Source of the DNA: Alphaproteobacteria bacterium
Lineage (GTDB): Bacteria; Pseudomonadota; Alphaproteobacteria; Micavibrionales; UBA2020
Direction of reading: 5' to 3'
DNA length: 64,000 nt
Assembly (NCBI GenBank): GCA_016794125.1
Contig: JAEUKT010000004.1
Coordinates: forward strand, 1 to 64,000
Shown: positions 13,921-22,821 of the stretch, piece by piece
Numbering within the stretch: the stretch's first letter is position 1
Layout: the number at the start of each line of letters is the position of its first letter
Notes under the pieces: generated by a model
What the model was told of the DNA's origin: nothing
Database searches by the model: none
Seen by the model: the letters and a program-made list of their open reading frames with translations, nothing else
Program-made: the position numbers and the translations under genes

Positions 13921-13949
13921 TTGACATAAAGGGAGATTCTGCCTAGAAG
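13921..13949 (+). promoter_or_regulatory. Candidate housekeeping promoter of the TelA-like operon
   Basis: A perfect -35 hexamer TTGACA (13921-13926) is followed after 17 nt by TAGAAG (13944-13949), a weak -10. It lies 57 nt before the ATG at 14007 in the only intergenic space of the operon. No GGAAC-type stress promoter is present here. Confidence 0.4.
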
Positions 13950-14006
13950 TCGGGCTCGGTTTTAAATATATGACAACTCCCGAAAGCCATTTTGCAGGTT
14001 ACCCCG

Positions 14007-15524
14007 ATGTATAACAGCTTTGATAACCGCCTTTCCATCAACGAAGCGAATGTCGAACTACAGGTGCTGATCCGCACGCAGGATGCGGTGGTCGATACGC
14101 TGGCCGCCGCCGCCAAGAACGTCGCGAGCGACAAGCAAAAAGCATCGGAAGGCTTGACGGCGGCTGTCCGTGCCATCGTGCGTGTAGATGATGTCGATCG
14201 TTATGCTGCTCTGTCGCGCGCAGCCAAGGATGACGGCGCAAGCTATAACTTTACCGCCGTCGTCGCCGACTGGGTGCAGAAGGATATTGACAACCGCAAG
14301 GAACGCGTCGGCCTTGAAGAAAAATGGGGCACGCGCCAGGAAGTGGCGCACAAGGCCGCCGAAGTGAAGGAAGGTATCGACCTTATCGCTTCCGCACTCG
14401 CCGAAATCTCTCCCGAAATCGCCCAGTTCGATGTCACCTCGGGCAAAATCAAAAAACACAACGAACAATATAAAGACAAGCCCAAGCTGCAGATCACTCA
14501 GGACAGCTACGACAACTATTCCAAATTCGGCTGGAAGGGCGTTGGCCGTTTCCTGCTCTGGCTCGTCGGCTATCGCGGCCCGCACCGCGCATACAAGGTT
14601 GTGAGCGAATACAACAAGAAGTTCGGCAATTATTACGACGACGCGCTGGAAATCACCGAACGCCGCAAGAACGAAAAGAAACTGCAGGGCGAACAGGCGT
14701 TGAAGCAGGCCGAATATGATAACCTGAACGCCATCGGCAACCGCATGTCCACGCTGGACCGCACCTATCGCGGATCGCAGGGCATCGCGCGCGATATCGG
14801 CGGTCTTGTCCTTGACCTCGTGTCGAAAAGCACGCGTTTTGTGCGCAACCTGCTGTCCGAAGTGCCGGGCGCGGAGGCGGACCAGATCGCGCTGAATTCG
14901 CTGAAACTCGCCAGCCTTGCGCCGCTCGAAACCATCGTGGCCGTGCATCACAGGAATGCGAAAGCAACGCTGAGCAGCCTGCAATCGCCGTTGGATACAT
15001 TACGTGATGCGATCGACGAAGTGGGCTCCGAGCACATTTCCTATGATTTCGACACGCTGAAAAATGGCATCGACAAGGCAGCCCGCAGCGGCCGCACCGC
15101 CGCCGCCGCCATTAACGGCGCGAGCGACTCCATCGAAACCTTCCAGTCCGCCCCCAACGCCGCATATGACGATATTAAGGGCAGCGTCGATAAAATCACC
15201 GCCATCCGCCCCGCCGAAGTGCAGCTGATCGCCGACCTGAGCGGGTTGGAAAGCAAAGTTGCGAACAAGCTGGAAGAATACCGCGCCGAACAGCGCAGGC
15301 TGGCCGAAATCGAACGCCAGCGCCGCGAGGCAGAGGCCGAGCGCGAACGCCAGCGCCTGCAGCGCGAATTCGAAAGCGTCGCGCGGCGGTCCACGAAGAG
15401 CGGCTCCGGCCCCTCGATCTCCGATACTCCCTCGACCTCCATCGGCATCGGTTCCGGCGGCATCACCCAGCGCGGTGGTTCCTCCAGCATCGGCATGGGC
15501 AGCCGTGGCATTACGGGCAGATAA
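14007..15524 (+). CDS. Unknown helical/coiled-coil protein, first gene of TelA-like operon
   Basis: 505 residues, unknown family. It is almost entirely helical. A charged N-terminal part is followed by a short hydrophobic amphipathic stretch near residue 180 (GVGRFLLWLVGY) that could touch a membrane. A long middle region holds helices rich in A/S/D. A strong coiled coil lies near residues 415-460 (EEYRAEQRRLAEIERQRREA, then ERQRLQREFE). The C-terminal tail is low-complexity Gly/Ser/Ile (SIGIGSGGIT, SSSIGMGSRGITGR), probably disordered or a partner-binding tail. The ATG at 14007 has AGG 8 nt upstream; an in-frame TTG at 13992 is less likely. It precedes the TelA-like gene by 56 nt. Confidence 0.75.
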   Translation: MYNSFDNRLSINEANVELQVLIRTQDAVVDTLAAAAKNVASDKQKASEGLTAAVRAIVRVDDVDRYAALSRAAKDDGASYNFTAVVADWVQKDIDNRKERVGLEEKWGTRQEVAHKAAEVKEGIDLIASALAEISPEIAQFDVTSGKIKKHNEQYKDKPKLQITQDSYDNYSKFGWKGVGRFLLWLVGYRGPHRAYKVVSEYNKKFGNYYDDALEITERRKNEKKLQGEQALKQAEYDNLNAIGNRMSTLDRTYRGSQGIARDIGGLVLDLVSKSTRFVRNLLSEVPGAEADQIALNSLKLASLAPLETIVAVHHRNAKATLSSLQSPLDTLRDAIDEVGSEHISYDFDTLKNGIDKAARSGRTAAAAINGASDSIETFQSAPNAAYDDIKGSVDKITAIRPAEVQLIADLSGLESKVANKLEEYRAEQRRLAEIERQRREAEAERERQRLQREFESVARRSTKSGSGPSISDTPSTSIGIGSGGITQRGGSSSIGMGSRGITGR

Positions 15525-15580
15525 CCATTTACCAACCAATTAACCGAATAAAACCGAAACCTAAAAAGGAAGCACACGAC

Positions 15581-16855
15581 ATGTCTAACGAACTTCTCGA
15601 CAACAAAAACATCGCGAACACTTTTGGCGGCGCCGCCGGCAAGCCCTTCAACGAAGATATCGTTGACTACCGCAAGGCGGATCCCGAAACGAAAGCGAAG
15701 ATGGACAAGCTGATCGCCACCATCGACCTGAAAGACCTCAACACCATCACCGTTTTCGGCAAAGAGCCGACCGATGTGCTGCGTGAGTCTTCCGAAGCCA
15801 TCGTGAAGCGCGCGCAGAACGCGACCACCTTCCTGGGCGGCTTTGCCCAGATCAAGGAAAAGCTTGAAAATTTCGATTTCAACACCGTGGGCAAGCTGGC
15901 GGCTGATTATTCGGCGAAAGTCGAGCGCAAGCTGAAAATGGCGGCGCTGTCGTTCAAGAAAAGCCCCTTCATGTACGTCGTGAAAAAAGTCGGTTATTTC
16001 TTCACCGGCCTCCGCGGCGGCAAAGAAACCTCGATGGACAACATTCGCCACGAAATCGACAAGAGCCTGCTGCAGCTGGCCGATGTCGTTGCTGACCTCG
16101 AGGAATCGAAAGCAAAAATCCCCGGCGTAATCAAGGACCTCAACATCCTCGAAGACGCACGCCTGACCGCATATTCCGACTACGGCATCTATGTCGGCGC
16201 GGCGCTGGAAAAATACCGCCAGGTGAAGGAAGAAGTGCTGCCGAAACTGGAAGAAGAAGCATCGACCAGCCCCCTGAAACAGGTCGAACTGCGCAACATC
16301 CGCCTTGCCGCGACCGTCCTTAACGCAAAAGTGACCGACATGGACACGTTCCACAAGTCGAGCCTTGTGCAACTGAAAACTATTGACGACCTGCAGGAAG
16401 CGCTCGCGATGAGCCAGCTGAAAATCGACAGCCACCTGACGATTTCGCAAGGCCAATGGACCGCGATCCTGGCTGAAGCTGCGACCGCAGCGCAAGTCAG
16501 CGAAATCGCTGAAACCGTGAAAACGGCAGATGATTTCGGCGACAAGATTTTCGAACAGTCGCAAAAACTGTCCGACATGACCAAGGCAATGTCGCGCGCG
16601 GCATTCGGCCATGGCACGCTCGATCCCGTGAAAGTGATCCAGCACCTGGAAAAGCGCACGCAGGACATCAAGGACGACCTCGTGTTCATGACCGAGTTCA
16701 ACGCGAAGATGGAAGCGCAGCGCACGGCGCTTGACGAAGCCGGCCAGAAGTTCCGCGAAGCGGCGAGCAAAGTGACCGCTCCCCGCGCGGTGCAGGAAGC
16801 AGCTGAACAGGCCGCGACCGCAGCGATGAAACAGCCGCAACAGCCGAAACCCTAA
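15581..16855 (+). CDS. TelA/KlaA-like (toxic anion resistance family) coiled-coil protein
   Basis: 424 residues, close to the usual TelA length of 360-430. From memory of Bacillus YaaN/TelA, the layout agrees throughout. It has an N-terminal 'DLKDLNTITVFGKEPTDVL' segment, an 'I..K...FDFNTVGKL' helix and a region with a long helix ending in 'YGIYVGAALEKYRQVKEEVLPKLEEEA'. A QLKTIDDLQEALAMSQLKID segment is followed by 'LTISQGQWTAILAEA', and a C-terminal GTLDPVKVIQHLEK helix ends the match. This is a family resemblance, not a database hit. TelA proteins are linked to tellurite, colicin or antibiotic tolerance, with no known enzyme activity. RBS AAAGGAAG. It sits between two unknown proteins, and no ter, klaB or xpaC genes are present. 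Confidence 0.7.
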   Translation: MSNELLDNKNIANTFGGAAGKPFNEDIVDYRKADPETKAKMDKLIATIDLKDLNTITVFGKEPTDVLRESSEAIVKRAQNATTFLGGFAQIKEKLENFDFNTVGKLAADYSAKVERKLKMAALSFKKSPFMYVVKKVGYFFTGLRGGKETSMDNIRHEIDKSLLQLADVVADLEESKAKIPGVIKDLNILEDARLTAYSDYGIYVGAALEKYRQVKEEVLPKLEEEASTSPLKQVELRNIRLAATVLNAKVTDMDTFHKSSLVQLKTIDDLQEALAMSQLKIDSHLTISQGQWTAILAEAATAAQVSEIAETVKTADDFGDKIFEQSQKLSDMTKAMSRAAFGHGTLDPVKVIQHLEKRTQDIKDDLVFMTEFNAKMEAQRTALDEAGQKFREAASKVTAPRAVQEAAEQAATAAMKQPQQPKP

Positions 16856-16882
16856 TCGTTCAGTCAACAGGAGCCGGCCGTC

Positions 16883-18349
16883 ATGGCATTAGAATCGTCC
16901 CCGAAGCTCGTGAGCAACAAATTCTCCGGCGCTGCAGCGCCGGATGCGAAGCGCGCGCGGATCGATGTCCGGACGGTCGGCTATCCTGCTGATGGTGATG
17001 ACCAGAAAATCACCTGGATGGGTATGTCGCCCGCGCCCGGCAAGGGCGACGGCTGGTATGTCATGCTGGTGGAGGAAGAGCCCAATAAATACCTCGTGCA
17101 GGTCAACAAGGACGAACGCCTTGTCGAAGTGGTTAAGGTGCTGGGCAAGGGCGAAGACGGCCCGATGACGTTTGAGAAAGCGGTCGAATACCTTGCTGTA
17201 TGGGAATATTCCCGCATGGCCAAGGGCGGGGTGCCGCATGAAAAGCAGGATCGCGACGATCTTGGCAAGCATTACTATAAAAACCTGCTGCTGAAGCGTG
17301 GGTATCTGGTGGATACGACCGGAACGCTGGCGGCAATCGCGGATATTTACCCCGCACAGACAGGCAAGTTCCTCAAATCCGACCTCGAGGCGCTGGAGCG
17401 TTTTCAGGACGGGTTGCGCGGTGAAAATATCCTGAACGAACTGATTTCGTCGCACGACCCGATCTTTATCTCGGAAACGACGCTGGAGGAAGATCTGCAA
17501 AGTTTCGGCGAGATCGCGCTGTTCAACAAGATGCAGCTGTTTGCGGAGACGCTGGTTAAATATGCCGGTGTGAAACTGGCGGAAGTGCAGAATTTCTATG
17601 CCGACCCCACCGCGAAGGCGGGGGAGGACCTGGCCGCAGCGCTCGCGAAAAGCGGGTTCTTTACAGAAGAGAAAGTCGCGAGGTTCAACGAAGTGAAGGC
17701 TGAGTTGTTCGGCGGCGTGTTCCGTTTCTTCCATGTCGATGAAGCCGACTGGGACAAGGAACTGGACCTAAAAAGCAAGGAGCTGCGCAAGGGCCTGTTG
17801 ATTAATCCCGATGCCGCGCAGACTTATAACTATTTCGATCGCCAGATCGGCCATCCGCTGACGTCCGATGACGTGAACGCGATGCTTTTTGTATCCGCCC
17901 GTTCGCTGGTCTATTTCCGCGAAATGCTGAAGGACAGCCCGCAGAAAGACGCGCTGGAGCGCAAAGGGATTTATAAGCAGGGCGATATCGACGATCTGCT
18001 GAATTACCTAGACCTCCTTGACATCAAATACCAGTACAAGGCGCTGGCCGAAGCGGCCGTGTCGCTGCCCGGCACGAAACGCGACAAGGAACTGGAAGAA
18101 AAGAAACAGGCCTTCATCCTGCGCGTGCAGGGTTTCAAGGAAAACCTGAAGGAAAGCCAGGATTATTCGGCGGCGATGGAAAAACAGATTGATGCCTTCA
18201 TCCGCTCCAGCACGCCGATCTACCTGCTGGACCGCATCGAAGCGCTGCCCGGCAAGATCGCCAAGGCCGAACAATATATCCGCGATCGCGTGCTGCCGAA
18301 ACCCGTGCAGCCCCCGCCAGCGCAAAACCCGAAACAGCCGACGCTATAA
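16883..18349 (+). CDS. Unknown soluble protein, third gene of TelA-like operon
   Basis: 488 residues without signal peptide or membrane segment. An N-terminal beta-rich portion (residues about 25-85, with ITWMGMSPAPGKGDGWYVMLVEEE and KYLVQVNKDERLVEVVKVLG) is followed by a helical body and a Pro-rich C-terminus (KPVQPPPAQNPKQPTL). I do not recognise the family. The start ATG 16883 has CAGGAG upstream, 27 nt after the TelA-like stop, so the two are almost certainly co-transcribed. Pro-rich tails of this kind often bind partners. That remains an inference. Confidence 0.75.
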   Translation: MALESSPKLVSNKFSGAAAPDAKRARIDVRTVGYPADGDDQKITWMGMSPAPGKGDGWYVMLVEEEPNKYLVQVNKDERLVEVVKVLGKGEDGPMTFEKAVEYLAVWEYSRMAKGGVPHEKQDRDDLGKHYYKNLLLKRGYLVDTTGTLAAIADIYPAQTGKFLKSDLEALERFQDGLRGENILNELISSHDPIFISETTLEEDLQSFGEIALFNKMQLFAETLVKYAGVKLAEVQNFYADPTAKAGEDLAAALAKSGFFTEEKVARFNEVKAELFGGVFRFFHVDEADWDKELDLKSKELRKGLLINPDAAQTYNYFDRQIGHPLTSDDVNAMLFVSARSLVYFREMLKDSPQKDALERKGIYKQGDIDDLLNYLDLLDIKYQYKALAEAAVSLPGTKRDKELEEKKQAFILRVQGFKENLKESQDYSAAMEKQIDAFIRSSTPIYLLDRIEALPGKIAKAEQYIRDRVLPKPVQPPPAQNPKQPTL

Positions 18350-18377
18350 TTAATAATAATTCCGAGGAGTGTGTGAC

Positions 18378-19394
18378 ATGGGTGATTTCGATTTCAACCC
18401 CAAGAAAAAAGACGACAAGGGTATCGGCAAAATCCGCCTTGGCGATGAAACTGCAGCCGAGCAGAAAGAAGCAGTCGCCAAAACCGCGACCCGCAAAAAA
18501 TGGCTCATCGGCGGCGGTATCGCAACCGGCGCGCTGGTTGTGACGCTTGGCCTGACGGCTGTTTTCAACAGCTCGAGTGACAAGCCTGCAGCTCCACAGC
18601 CGCAGCGCACCGAACAGACGCAGACTTACCAGCCGCCCGTGCAGGCGCAGAATCCGCCCAGCGAACAATCAGGCGTTTCGCTGGCACAAAGCTATGCTGC
18701 CAAGCAAAGCGCGATTTATCGCGACCAGATCCAGATTTACAAGGAAACCGACCGTTCCGGCCGCATGGTTGGCACGGGCGAAGCCTATATCAGCGCGAAC
18801 GGTCAGGCCGTGCCATTCGGTTCCGATTTCGCGGTGCATGTATCGCTGTTCGAAAAAGGCGGTATCAGCCTCCTTGTGGCATCCGGCCCGCATGCAGGTT
18901 CACGCGTGGAGTTTATGCCTGTCGGCGTGCGCAGCACGCCCCGCATCACCTACAGCCGCGTCGGACAAGAAATAGCAACACCCGACGGCCCGCGCTTCCA
19001 GATGTTGCCGCAAGCGCAGCGCACCGAACAGACCGTACCCATGAAAACGCCTGCGATTGCAGGCAGTGGCGTTGCGATGCCCGACCAGGCATGGGAATTC
19101 GACAAGAATGTGCGTGAAAACGGTGAAACCGTTCGTGCCTTCACGGTCAAGGGCAATGTTGAAGATGGTGTGTTTTCGGTCAAAATCTGGAATGGCGACA
19201 CCTACACCATCAATTTCGCCACCGGCCAATACACCGTTGACAGCGTTTTCCTGTTCCATCCGAACTATCTGGAGGAGACGCAGCGTACAGGCGTCAATAT
19301 CGACGCATCAACGATTCCGCTGGTAAAGGGTGTCATGCAGGTTGCGCCCGCGCAGCGCCCCGCGCCGTCGCAGACGCGCGCGCCCGGCCGCTAA
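18378..19394 (+). CDS. Single-pass membrane protein with periplasmic domain, last gene of TelA-like operon
   Basis: 338 residues. A charged cytoplasmic N-terminus of about 41 residues (MGDFDFNPKKKDDKGIGK...) precedes one membrane helix (residues about 42-63, WLIGGGIATGALVVTLGL). A Gln/Pro-rich linker and a probably periplasmic beta-rich domain follow, ending in a Pro-rich tail. This topology resembles inner-membrane anchors that reach into the periplasm. The family is unknown. ATG 18378 is chosen because GAGGAG lies 8 nt upstream; an in-frame GTG at 18369 overlaps that ribosome site. The operon ends in a hairpin about 25 nt after the stop. Confidence 0.75.
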   Translation: MGDFDFNPKKKDDKGIGKIRLGDETAAEQKEAVAKTATRKKWLIGGGIATGALVVTLGLTAVFNSSSDKPAAPQPQRTEQTQTYQPPVQAQNPPSEQSGVSLAQSYAAKQSAIYRDQIQIYKETDRSGRMVGTGEAYISANGQAVPFGSDFAVHVSLFEKGGISLLVASGPHAGSRVEFMPVGVRSTPRITYSRVGQEIATPDGPRFQMLPQAQRTEQTVPMKTPAIAGSGVAMPDQAWEFDKNVRENGETVRAFTVKGNVEDGVFSVKIWNGDTYTINFATGQYTVDSVFLFHPNYLEETQRTGVNIDASTIPLVKGVMQVAPAQRPAPSQTRAPGR

Positions 19395-19419
19395 CGGCGC
19401 ATAATATCGATCATGATAA

Positions 19420-19455
19420 GCAACAGGCCCGCGGGGAAACCCGTGGGCCTGTTGC
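19420..19455 (+). terminator. Strong hairpin between convergent transcription units
   Basis: A 16-bp stem (19420-19435 with 19440-19455, one G-U pair) closes on a GAAA tetraloop. It lies between the end of the TelA-like operon and the convergent glycine-zipper gene. No T tract follows on either strand, so it may act as an mRNA 3'-end stabiliser rather than a classic intrinsic terminator. Confidence 0.6.
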
Positions 19456-19482: not shown

Positions 19483-19734
19483 TTATTCGCGATTTTTCTG
19501 GCTTTGGTCGTAGATATAGCCGCCGATTGCGCCTGCACCTGCCCCGATTGCAGCGCCGCAGCCGACACATCCGCCGGTCATGGCTGTGCCAACGGCACCG
19601 ACACCCGCACCGATGCCGGCTCCGGAAAGCGTGCGTTGCTGGGTTGAATTCATGCCACTACATGCGGTGAGTGACAGAAGCGCGATACCGAGGATGGGGG
19701 CGCGCAGTTTGCTCATTATGGTGCGGTCTTTCAT
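19483..19734 (-). CDS. Glycine-zipper outer-membrane lipoprotein (small, 83 aa)
   Basis: Signal peptide with lipobox LTAC (Cys about residue 26), then a glycine-zipper run (GAGIGAGVGAVGTAM and GAAIGAGAGAIGGYIYDQ) with GxxxG spacing. Such proteins are lipid-anchored to the outer membrane or form oligomeric membrane helices, as in the SlyB/Pcp/OsmB group, and are often stress-induced. ATG 19734 has AAAGGAG upstream. A perfect EcfG-type promoter ends 32 nt before the start, consistent with stress induction. Confidence 0.8.
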   Translation of the reverse strand: MKDRTIMSKLRAPILGIALLSLTACSGMNSTQQRTLSGAGIGAGVGAVGTAMTGGCVGCGAAIGAGAGAIGGYIYDQSQKNRE

Positions 19735-19766
19735 AGGGATCTCCTTTAAAAAATGTTCGAATATCC

Positions 19767-19791
19767 AACGCCCCAAGCCTTTGTTTGTTCC
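19767..19791 (-). promoter_or_regulatory. EcfG-type general stress promoter (glycine-zipper gene)
   Basis: On the minus strand it reads GGAAC, 16 nt, CGTT, a perfect match to the alphaproteobacterial sigma-EcfG consensus. The -10 ends 32 nt from the start codon at 19734. Confidence 0.75.
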
Positions 19792-19801
19792 CCGAAAAGA
19801 A

Positions 19802-19829
19802 ACCGCCCGGCTAGGGCAAGCCGGGCGGT
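19802..19829 (-). terminator. Intrinsic terminator after the EF-hand gene
   Basis: An 11-bp GC-rich stem (19802-19812 with 19819-19829) has a 6-nt loop. On the minus strand the T-rich tract TTCTTTTC follows. It ends the EF-hand transcript just before the promoter of the next gene. Confidence 0.65.
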
Positions 19830-19890
19830 GTATGGGCCGAAACACGGGTTTACGTGTGTGGAGGGTGCTCCGGCTGGCTTTTAGTGGTTA

Positions 19891-20553
19891 CTACTTGTTC
19901 AGGGCGGCTTCAGCGCGGTTTTTAGCGTCGATGCTGGCGTTATACACGCCTTCCCATTCTTTTTTCTCGATCACCTTGCTGTTATCGACATCGACGATGT
20001 TGAAATGCTTGTCGGTGAACTCGCGCGGTGACAGGCCGTTGTTGTTTTTGTCGAAACGCGACAGCTGCGTGTATTCCAGGAATTTTTCATAGGTGACTTC
20101 CTGCTTGTCGGCAATACCGTCATTGTCGAAGTCATAGGTGATCTTCGTCATTTTCTCCATCGGAGCGACGGTCAGGACGGCGGGGCGCTCGTATTCGTTA
20201 TTGTCGATTACCATGTTGCCGTCGGTATCATAGAGACCGAACAGCATATCTCCGACCTCCGCTAGCGACAGGATGCCGTTGCGGTTCGCGTCGAAATCCT
20301 CGAAGTGGATTGCGCGCGTTGTCGGCGGAAGTGGCGACGGTGCCACAGTCGTTTCAGTCAACGTCTTGGACGATGTGGTCGTGGTGGTGGTTTCAACGGC
20401 AACGGGCGCGCCGGTGGTCGTTGTGGTTGTGGTCGATTCAACGACGGGCACTTCGACAGTGCGTTCGCGGACGATAGTGGTTTCCGCAGTAGCCTGTAGG
20501 CTGAGCAGGGCGACAGCCGCGCAGGTGATCATAAATGTTCCGGTCTTCATCAT
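19891..20553 (-). CDS. Exported EF-hand calcium-binding protein with Thr-rich linker
   Basis: 220 residues. The signal peptide ends near ATA/ETT (residue 23). A linker of Thr/Val runs to residue 80, with TTTTTTT and TTTTTT tracts. Five EF-hand loops follow: canonical 12-residue loops at D88-E99, D109-E120, D141-E152 and D188-E199, and a degenerate one at D168, whose twelfth position is Phe. The likely role is calcium-dependent periplasmic or surface function. The partner is unknown. RBS AAAGGAG. A perfect EcfG-type promoter lies upstream, back to back with the promoter of the PRC-barrel gene. Confidence 0.8.
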   Translation of the reverse strand: MMKTGTFMITCAAVALLSLQATAETTIVRERTVEVPVVESTTTTTTTGAPVAVETTTTTTSSKTLTETTVAPSPLPPTTRAIHFEDFDANRNGILSLAEVGDMLFGLYDTDGNMVIDNNEYERPAVLTVAPMEKMTKITYDFDNDGIADKQEVTYEKFLEYTQLSRFDKNNNGLSPREFTDKHFNIVDVDNSKVIEKKEWEGVYNASIDAKNRAEAALNK

Positions 20554-20588
20554 GCGTATTCTCCTTTAGGGTTCAAGTCTCGTGTGCA

Positions 20589-20613
20589 AACGCGGGCAAA
20601 AGAAAACGGTTCC
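20589..20613 (-). promoter_or_regulatory. EcfG-type general stress promoter (EF-hand gene)
   Basis: The minus strand reads GGAAC, 16 nt, CGTT. The -10 lies 35 nt from the start codon at 20553. It is divergent from another such promoter 62 nt away. Confidence 0.75.
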
Positions 20614-20674
20614 ATGGATTATGGTATAGGCTTGTTTTTATTCGATATAAATTATGCGCGCCAAAGGGTCTCGG

Positions 20675-20699
20675 GGAACCATATGCAACAAGATGCGTT
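20675..20699 (+). promoter_or_regulatory. EcfG-type general stress promoter (PRC-barrel gene)
   Basis: GGAAC (20675-20679), 16 nt, CGTT (20696-20699), a perfect consensus. It lies 40 nt before the ATG at 20740. Confidence 0.78.
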
Positions 20700-20739
20700 T
20701 GAATGGCGACCCCCTACAAAACTCAAAAGGAGATTTATC

Positions 20740-21603
20740 ATGAAAACCTATAACCTGATCGGCGCAGTATCCGCAATTGCCCTGCTGTTTGCCGCGCCAG
20801 CAATGGCTGAAACAGCCAAAGAAATGAACAAAGAGTACAACCAGAATGAATCTTACGGCAGCCGTGCGAAAGACACCGGATCGGCCGTAGATCGCCAGCA
20901 GAACAATTCGGAAGCAAAAGAAGACTTCGCAAAAGCGACGAAAGACGCTTCGGCTTCGCTGAAAGAAACCGCTGACGAGATCAAGGCTGCGTTTATCGAC
21001 GAAGATGTGAAAGTCAAAGCGTCGCACGTGACCTTCAGTAAACGTACGACCGCTGACGGTATCATCGGCAAGCCAGTCGTGAACCAGTCGAACGACCGCG
21101 TCGCGACTGTTGAAGACGTGATCCTCGACGCAAACGGAGATGCAAAACTGGTTGTCGTGAAAGATGGTGATTTCGCCGGTATGGGGGGCAAACTGGCCGC
21201 TTTCGACTATGACTCGATCATCTCGCGCAAATCGGATGGCGATATTGTTATGCCGATCACCGAACAGACCATCGATAAAGTCGCCGAATTCTCCTACGAA
21301 AAAACGGACAAAGAAAATGTCCGCGTGATCCCGGCGAATGGCTACTCCGTGAAAGGCCTGCTGGACGGCAACATCGTTGATCCTGCCGGCAACAAACTGG
21401 CATCGATCGACAACTTGTCGCTGAAGGGCGGCAAGGCTGACCTGATCATCGCAGGCTACGGCAAAGTCCTCGCCATGGGCGGCGACAAGGTTGCGGTTGA
21501 CTTCGACACGGGCCGCCTGGTCCGCGACGGTGATAATGTGAACCTGAAACTGAGCCAGAACCAGACGGCGAAGTTCAACACCTTCAAAGACACGCACAAC
21601 TAA
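20740..21603 (+). CDS. Exported PRC-barrel domain protein
   Basis: 287 residues. The signal peptide ends in APAMA/ETA. A charged helical stretch rich in K/E/D (residues about 24-95) is followed by two PRC-barrel-like units: GIIGKPVVNQSNDRVATVED (about 105-165) and SVKGLLDGNIVDPAGNKLAS (about 200-265). The second of each pair ends in GMGGKLAAFDYD or AMGGDKVAVDFD. PRC-barrel proteins of this form are common in alphaproteobacterial stress regulons, and their molecular role is unclear. Start ATG 20740 has AAAAGGAG upstream and the EcfG-type promoter 40 nt away. The frame is open further upstream only by chance. Confidence 0.82.
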   Translation: MKTYNLIGAVSAIALLFAAPAMAETAKEMNKEYNQNESYGSRAKDTGSAVDRQQNNSEAKEDFAKATKDASASLKETADEIKAAFIDEDVKVKASHVTFSKRTTADGIIGKPVVNQSNDRVATVEDVILDANGDAKLVVVKDGDFAGMGGKLAAFDYDSIISRKSDGDIVMPITEQTIDKVAEFSYEKTDKENVRVIPANGYSVKGLLDGNIVDPAGNKLASIDNLSLKGGKADLIIAGYGKVLAMGGDKVAVDFDTGRLVRDGDNVNLKLSQNQTAKFNTFKDTHN

Positions 21604-21621
21604 GCGTGACGTAATAAGTTT

Positions 21622-21649
21622 CCGGCCTGTCCCGAAAGGGGCGGGCCGG
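21622..21649 (+). other. GAAA-tetraloop hairpin between PRC-barrel and csbD genes
   Basis: Stem 21622-21633 with 21638-21649 (12 bp, two G-U pairs), loop GAAA. No T tract follows. It may protect the upstream mRNA or attenuate read-through into the CsbD gene, which has no promoter of its own that I can see. Confidence 0.5.
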
Positions 21650-21688
21650 CGCTTATCCACCCTCAACCTCTGACTAAGGAGATATCAC

Positions 21689-21892
21689 ATGAACGAAGAC
21701 ATCCTTCAAGGCAAATGGAACGAACTCAAAGGCTCCATCCAGGAAAAATGGGGCAAGCTGACCGATGATGACATGACGCGCATCAACGGCGACCGCATCA
21801 AGCTTGCGGGCACGATTCAGAAAAATTACGGGATCGCGCGCGACGAAGCTGAAAAGCAGCTGAAGGAATGGGAAGACGAGCACAGGGTCTAA
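21689..21892 (+). CDS. CsbD family stress protein
   Basis: 67 residues with the family pattern GKWNELKGSIQEKWGKLTDDD, followed by a second half KLAGTIQKNYGIARDEAEKQLKEW. CsbD-like proteins are small, hydrophilic and induced by general stress, with no known enzyme activity. RBS TAAGGAG, 7 nt spacing. It is 85 nt downstream of the PRC-barrel gene and probably shares its EcfG-type promoter by read-through past the hairpin. Confidence 0.9.
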   Translation: MNEDILQGKWNELKGSIQEKWGKLTDDDMTRINGDRIKLAGTIQKNYGIARDEAEKQLKEWEDEHRV

Positions 21893-22044
21893 GTCTCCTC
21901 AAGCTCCAACCTTCCCCGGATGGGGGTCGTCGGTTCACCGATGGCCTCCATCTCTTTTACCTGCAACCTGCTAAAAAAGTGAACTTTATGGCTTCAGGAC
22001 TGTTGGCGACGCAACAGATTCAATTTTAACCGAGGAGACAGATC

Positions 22045-22377
22045 ATGCAAAACATTCAGACCGATAAAGGCCTTAAACGCGTCGATGGCGCTATCGCAGG
22101 TCTTGGCGAACAGCTTTCCGCAGATGTCAACGACGTCCGTGACGATGTGAAATCGCTGAAGGAAAACGTGAGCGCGCTGGGCCACTCCCTGAAGGAAGAA
22201 GCCTGCGCGAAAACAAGCGAGTTGAAAGACCTCGCTTCCGAAAAACTGGAAAGTGTGATGAAACGCGGCGACGAAAGCCTTAAATTCATTGATGATGAAG
22301 TCCGTGCGAACCCTCGCAGCGCTGTGGCTGTCGCGTTTGCAGCCGGCATCCTCGCCAACTTCCTCCTGCGCCGGTAA
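22045..22377 (+). CDS. DUF883 (ElaB/YqjD-like) membrane-anchored protein
   Basis: 110 residues. A long amphipathic helix with heptads (LGEQLSADVNDVRDDVKSLKEN) is followed by a C-terminal membrane anchor with the family ending RANPRSAVAVAFAAGILANFLLRR. E. coli ElaB/YqjD proteins tether to the inner membrane and associate with ribosomes in stationary phase. RBS GAGGAG. The next gene starts 6 nt after the stop, so they form a pair resembling yqjD-yqjE. Confidence 0.85.
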   Translation: MQNIQTDKGLKRVDGAIAGLGEQLSADVNDVRDDVKSLKENVSALGHSLKEEACAKTSELKDLASEKLESVMKRGDESLKFIDDEVRANPRSAVAVAFAAGILANFLLRR

Positions 22378-22383
22378 CCCGCC

Positions 22384-22821
22384 ATGGCCGTCGTCCAACC
22401 CATGATCACGCAGATGTTGCTTAACAGCCTGTTGACGCGTACGTCGAAAACCCCTGCCATGCGCAAGGCAGAAATATGCCTGCTGGCGGCTTGCGGGATA
22501 TTTTCGGTGATCGGTTCCGTGTTCCTCTTTGTCGCCCTTCACGCTTTCGCGCTTGTTTATTACGTGCCATGGGTGGCGGCGACAATCACAGGCAGCGCGG
22601 CGCTAATCGTCGGCCTGTGCTGCGCCGTTGCGGCGGGTAACATGGAAACCGCACGGAAGGCCATGAAGCCCGAGCATAGCATCGAGGATACCGGCGAGGC
22701 TCTGCTGGCCGCGCTTGGCCATGCAACGCAAGGGCTGGAGAAACCGATTAGTGAAAACCCGCGCACTTCGGTGCTGCTGGCATCGCTCGCGGGATACTTG
22801 GCTGGCGACAGGCTGCACTAG
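22384..22821 (+). CDS. Small membrane protein, YqjE/holin-like position
   Basis: 145 residues with two membrane helices near the middle (about 35-62 and 65-88; FSVIGSVFLFVALHAFALVYY and AATITGSAALIVGLCCAVAA). A C-terminal ENPRTSVLLASLAGYLAGDRLH segment repeats the RxNPxxA-type ending of the preceding DUF883 protein. Its position matches YqjE (phage holin family) of yqjD-yqjE pairs. No clear Shine-Dalgarno is seen, so translation may be coupled. The family call is inferred from position and topology. Confidence 0.7.
   Translation: MAVVQPMITQMLLNSLLTRTSKTPAMRKAEICLLAACGIFSVIGSVFLFVALHAFALVYYVPWVAATITGSAALIVGLCCAVAAGNMETARKAMKPEHSIEDTGEALLAALGHATQGLEKPISENPRTSVLLASLAGYLAGDRLH

Follow-up and report, generated by a model that had tools for sequence, protein, structure and literature searches.

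Four closely packed genes (P1, TelA, P3 and P4) occupy positions 14007–19394 of the analysed window, a stretch of 64,000 nucleotides from the contig JAEUKT010000004.1 of an alphaproteobacterium of the order Micavibrionales (Table 1). The intergenic distances of 56, 27 and 28 nt reported by a previous sequence-only reading were confirmed from the ORF coordinates. For P1, an alternative start is possible at a TTG at position 13992. By eye, purine-rich ribosome-binding sites were identified ahead of TelA, P3 and P4, and no clear one ahead of P1. The genes located downstream of the cassette (19483–22821) code for Gly-zipper lipoprotein, EF-hand, PRC-barrel and Holin-X family proteins according to Pfam.

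Table 1 Features of the four-gene cassette and its flanks (window coordinates)
Feature	Position	Strand	Description and basis
Putative promoter, TTGACA-N17-TAGAAG	13921..13949	+	sequence comparison
P1	14007..15524	+	505 aa; Arg/Glu-rich, then Gly/Ser-rich C-terminus
TelA	15581..16855	+	424 aa, divergent
P3	16883..18349	+	488 aa; N-terminal TelA-associated domain and helical C-terminal part
P3 N-terminal domain, residues 24–178	16952..17416	+	alignment of domain family
P4	18378..19394	+	338 aa; hydropathy, alignments, low-confidence model
Hairpin, 16 pairs, GAAA loop	19420..19455		folding; between convergent genes

The TTGACA-N17-TAGAAG element opens an upstream stretch conserved in genomes G003 and G004. 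Since a consensus promoter scan did not list this element, it is regarded as a putative promoter. No cassette genes were found in G003; its contig ends at the conserved stretch, so that this genome may also possess the cassette. The hairpin (arms 19420–19435 and 19440–19455), which had been taken to end the operon, is indeed strong (−40.7 kcal/mol, z −6), but it is not followed by a T-run and was not listed by a terminator scan; it may nevertheless act as a terminator. A search of Rfam yielded no match.

The TelA relation on which the sequence-only reading depended was found. The second gene product matches PF05816 with 46.9 bits (cut-off 30; E 2.6e-12), residues 43–385 covering profile positions 3–320 of 332, and is predicted to be soluble. 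In a comparison across 385 genomes of the class, both TelA proteins of the own genome scored about 48 bits against PF05816 and most TelA proteins from outside the order 230–384 bits, a gap which indicates that the TelA proteins of the order form a divergent branch of their own. Within the order, PF05816 matched eight out of ten TelA proteins at E ≤ 1e-3. PDB matches of the order's TelA profile, namely designed and coiled-coil chains, were rejected as homology, as was a 458-aa gene product in G028:C3 considered TelA-like, since the TelA profile does not match it.

As anticipated by the sequence-only reading, P1, P3 and P4 yielded no significant match in profile searches of Pfam, NCBIfam, PADLOC and PHROGs, and no convincing relative in the PDB. 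P1 is helical by sequence, displays no transmembrane segment in hydropathy analysis and is predicted to be soluble. Its orthologues are encoded in G004 (94 % identity) and G028 (36 %), and a lone relative in G054 (24 %). Relatives next to ankyrin-type loci (G107, G005) are candidates only, with E 0.009 by profile and 0.02 by hhalign. The low-complexity tails previously described for P1, P3 and P4 are present but mostly not conserved; only the P1 end, G(S/T)RG(I/L)(T/S)GR, is kept in G028.

P4 was proposed to be a single-pass membrane protein with a periplasmic domain, and the predictions agree: the protein has a single hydrophobic segment in its N-terminal part (a 19-residue window that starts at residue 44; transmembrane near 44–62) and is predicted to traverse the membrane once with its N-terminus inside. 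The predicted layout comprises a cytoplasmic tail (FNPxKK..DDKGIGK), the transmembrane segment, a Pro/Gln-rich linker and, in a low-confidence model, a beta-rich exported part. A comparison of the window with G028 shows conservation of the tail but not of the linker, which suggests docking. P4 occurs solely together with the cassette. Apparent relatives in G001 (E 4e-5) and G107 (E 0.003) were rejected, because the transmembrane segment and Pro-rich linker alone aligned, and the best PDB match, confined to a short segment of a designed propeller, was likewise rejected as homology. AlphaFold models were poor for P3 (pLDDT 48) and P4 (pLDDT 40), neither of which retrieved a PDB fold at E ≤ 0.001.

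Conservation of the neighbourhood in other genomes, the lack of which would have counted against the sequence-only reading, was found. All four genes are present in G004, a member of the same genus, with 94–98 % identity and at the same site beside proB. They are also present in the same order in G028 (Micavibrio sp. UBA6147), a representative of another family of the order, with 36–50 % identity and at a different chromosomal location. In G016, a short contig carries TelA and P3, and P4 lies at the edge of a second one, a split consistent with an interrupted assembly; P1 does not precede TelA there. Orthologues share 98, 66 and 50 % identity for P3 and 98, 71 and 50 % for TelA, which adjoins P3 in each case. 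All four genes are under purifying selection, as dN/dS between the window and G004 ranges from 0.02 to 0.07 (TelA, 0.03; P1, 0.07). The recurrence of the gene order in G028 and G004, and of TelA with P3 in G016, defines the four genes as a unit. Among 55 relatives, cassette P3 and P4 were each detected in only four genomes (own, G004, G028 and G016), and the cassette is thus patchily distributed. An empty site could not be defined in the genus, the neighbours of proB differing in G001, G002, G005 and G008. Downstream of P4, G028 and G016 harbour a regulator and RND-efflux-like genes of differing types (L011:15449-19902, L010:1-2524).

As judged from sequence profiles, the approximately 150 N-terminal residues of P3 constitute a domain family for which Pfam holds no model. 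A profile built from cassette P3 alone matched the N-terminus of ankyrin proteins adjoining another TelA. Profiles were furthermore constructed with each of seven families omitted in turn and searched against 1080 ORFs. At least one member of every omitted family was recovered at E 1.6e-7 or better, unrelated ORFs all having E ≥ 0.1, although several members of the most divergent family, coreB, scored just 0.01–7. The cassette P3 proteins were recovered at E 6e-10 to 3.5e-8 by the profile lacking cassette sequences. In an alignment of 20 sequences, the tryptophan equivalent to P3 W58 is invariant. Four strands followed by helices are predicted for the domain (model pLDDT about 35–75), and its faint resemblance to PC4/Pur-alpha may serve as a lead.

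The sequence-only reading missed that P3 belongs to an order-wide family partnering TelA, and that the own genome contains a second TelA locus (G000:C1:386903-390517; L030:6061-10518), which is followed by two P3-domain genes. P3-like genes adjoin nearly every TelA locus inspected, and a P3 domain was detected within 5 kb of 20 out of 31 TelA loci; of the other 11, some lie near contig ends, while those in G033 and at G005:C3:854862 are truly apart. Across 135 genomes of the order, many of them incomplete, 24 encode both TelA and the P3 domain, two the P3 domain only, four TelA only and 105 neither; some of the TelA matches counted, from 28 genomes in total, are weak (E near 1e-4). The co-occurrence has a Fisher p of 2.5e-20, uncorrected for relatedness, which renders the counts non-independent and inflates them. 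Distance matrices of TelA and neighbouring P3 correlate with r 0.957 over 19 loci (0 of 5000 permutations), a correlation which may reflect linkage only. That the four genes are ordinary co-directional neighbours of no shared function is highly improbable: another family retains the gene order at a separate place on the chromosome, and TelA and P3 co-occur and co-evolve, so that conservation largely refutes this explanation.

The TelA-P3 core recurs across a family, often next to rnd-like and aldehyde dehydrogenase-like genes. Other TelA-P3 loci encode four consecutive short exported or membrane-anchored proteins (G031), a single-pass protein (G107) or a lipoprotein-like protein (G001), all unrelated to P4. 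A small recurrent neighbour of TelA has a motif resembling W(L)xxPDNAK at its C-terminus (L014:6336-7199, L116:10307-11038, L015:5081-5866, L013:9053-9652), and in G085 and G052 TelA is located directly upstream of yajC-secD-secF-like genes (L116:11126-15662, L014:7075-11700). Ankyrin-repeat P3-domain proteins adjoin TelA with glycosyltransferase-like genes nearby (L016:2453-4666, L028:9371-11617, L027:5707-7872).

The common N-terminal domain, the varied C-termini (helical or ankyrin) and the lineage expansion of P3-domain proteins would also befit cargo or effectors that share a recognition domain and have TelA as dedicated chaperone. Cassettes, however, contain a single P3 conserved along its whole length, and no secretion genes were seen beside cassette loci, which makes this proposal improbable. 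The domain is present in 26 of the 135 genomes, with four copies in the own genome and 22 in G076, where tandem arrays (L113, L114) occur and the single TelA lies on a separate contig. An orphan 382-aa P3-domain gene of the own genome (G000:C1:161310-162458; L072:9311-10459) has no recognised TelA nearby. Patchiness, copy number and tandem arrays, together with the proposal that TelA of Ter systems stops phage entry (PMC7824862), could indicate a conflict module in which TelA and variable P3 adaptors keep phages or foreign DNA from entering at the membrane, the P3 paralogues diversifying against invaders. This is nevertheless unlikely: PADLOC gave no match (best E 0.004, partial stretches only), searches of plasmid and phage records and of viral contigs did not find P3, one family seems to have inherited the core rnd-TelA-P3 locus vertically, and purifying selection is strong.

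No match to the P3 domain was obtained outside the order among 385 genomes of the class and 398 of the phylum, sets in which the order is represented by the own genome and a few others. Restriction to the order containing Micavibrio, and the combination of a membrane protein with large helical proteins, might suggest a structural envelope apparatus for attachment or predation rather than a stress system. Yet TelA and P3 are missing from most genomes of the order and hence are not needed for a predatory lifestyle, and neither protein displays an export signal by eye; we regard such an apparatus as rather unlikely.

Among known systems, the KilA/KlaA-TelA operon of IncP plasmids likewise contains a TelA-family member in a short operon. 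It is plasmid-borne, whereas the cassette is chromosomal and has no KlaB or KlaC match in Pfam. The absence of ter, kla and xpaC genes stated by the sequence-only reading holds for the four genes and nine neighbours, which lack homologues of TerB/C/D, vWA, HAD, phosphoribosyltransferase and XpaC (5-bromo-4-chloroindolyl phosphate hydrolysis family). Ter systems (TerB/C/D/F and TelA) have TelA in common with the cassette, and TelA has been described as forming sub-membrane structures (PMC7824862). The XpaC-TelA operon (Listeria lmo1966-lmo1967; Bacillus YaaN), for which a role in envelope tolerance was proposed (PMC12791056), also combines a TelA-domain protein with a dedicated partner, but the TelA of the cassette is very divergent and no counterpart of P1, P3 or P4 was found there. 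Disruption of Listeria telA increased susceptibility to nisin 4-fold and to tellurite 2-fold, the mode of action being stated as not known (PMC12791056).

Given TelA as a sub-membrane component and its link to nisin and tellurite, the best reading of the cassette is a membrane-linked assembly built around TelA that protects the envelope, which we consider plausible, if somewhat short of probable, the protective role being extrapolated from TelA studies of other bacteria. P4 would cross the inner membrane once, its tail inside and its beta-rich domain in the periplasm, and act either as an anchor or as a sensor. A helical scaffold at the inner face of the membrane would be formed by TelA and P1, with P3 as adaptor: its N-terminal domain would join TelA, and its helical C-terminal half would select the target. 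The likely role would be to shield the envelope from membrane-active compounds or to counter a related stress of the TelA type. In favour of this reading are the recurrence of all four genes in G028, the co-occurrence and proximity of TelA and the P3 domain with their correlated distances, and the exported or membrane-anchored proteins near other TelA-P3 loci. Counting against such an assembly are the lack of an XpaC or Ter partner and P3-domain clusters without recognised TelA (G076, G028:C3, own C1:161382), and the strong divergence of the cassette TelA means that its function may differ from that of other TelA proteins.

More tentatively, and with considerable doubt, the P3 domain could represent a new, order-private family of adaptors with varied C-terminal modules, serving a TelA-based sub-membrane platform for envelope defence distinct from Ter and XpaC systems. 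The divergent TelA and its constant, readily recognised partner domain provide a concrete pair for binding and structural work, and a first context for dozens of unannotated proteins of Micavibrio-like bacteria.
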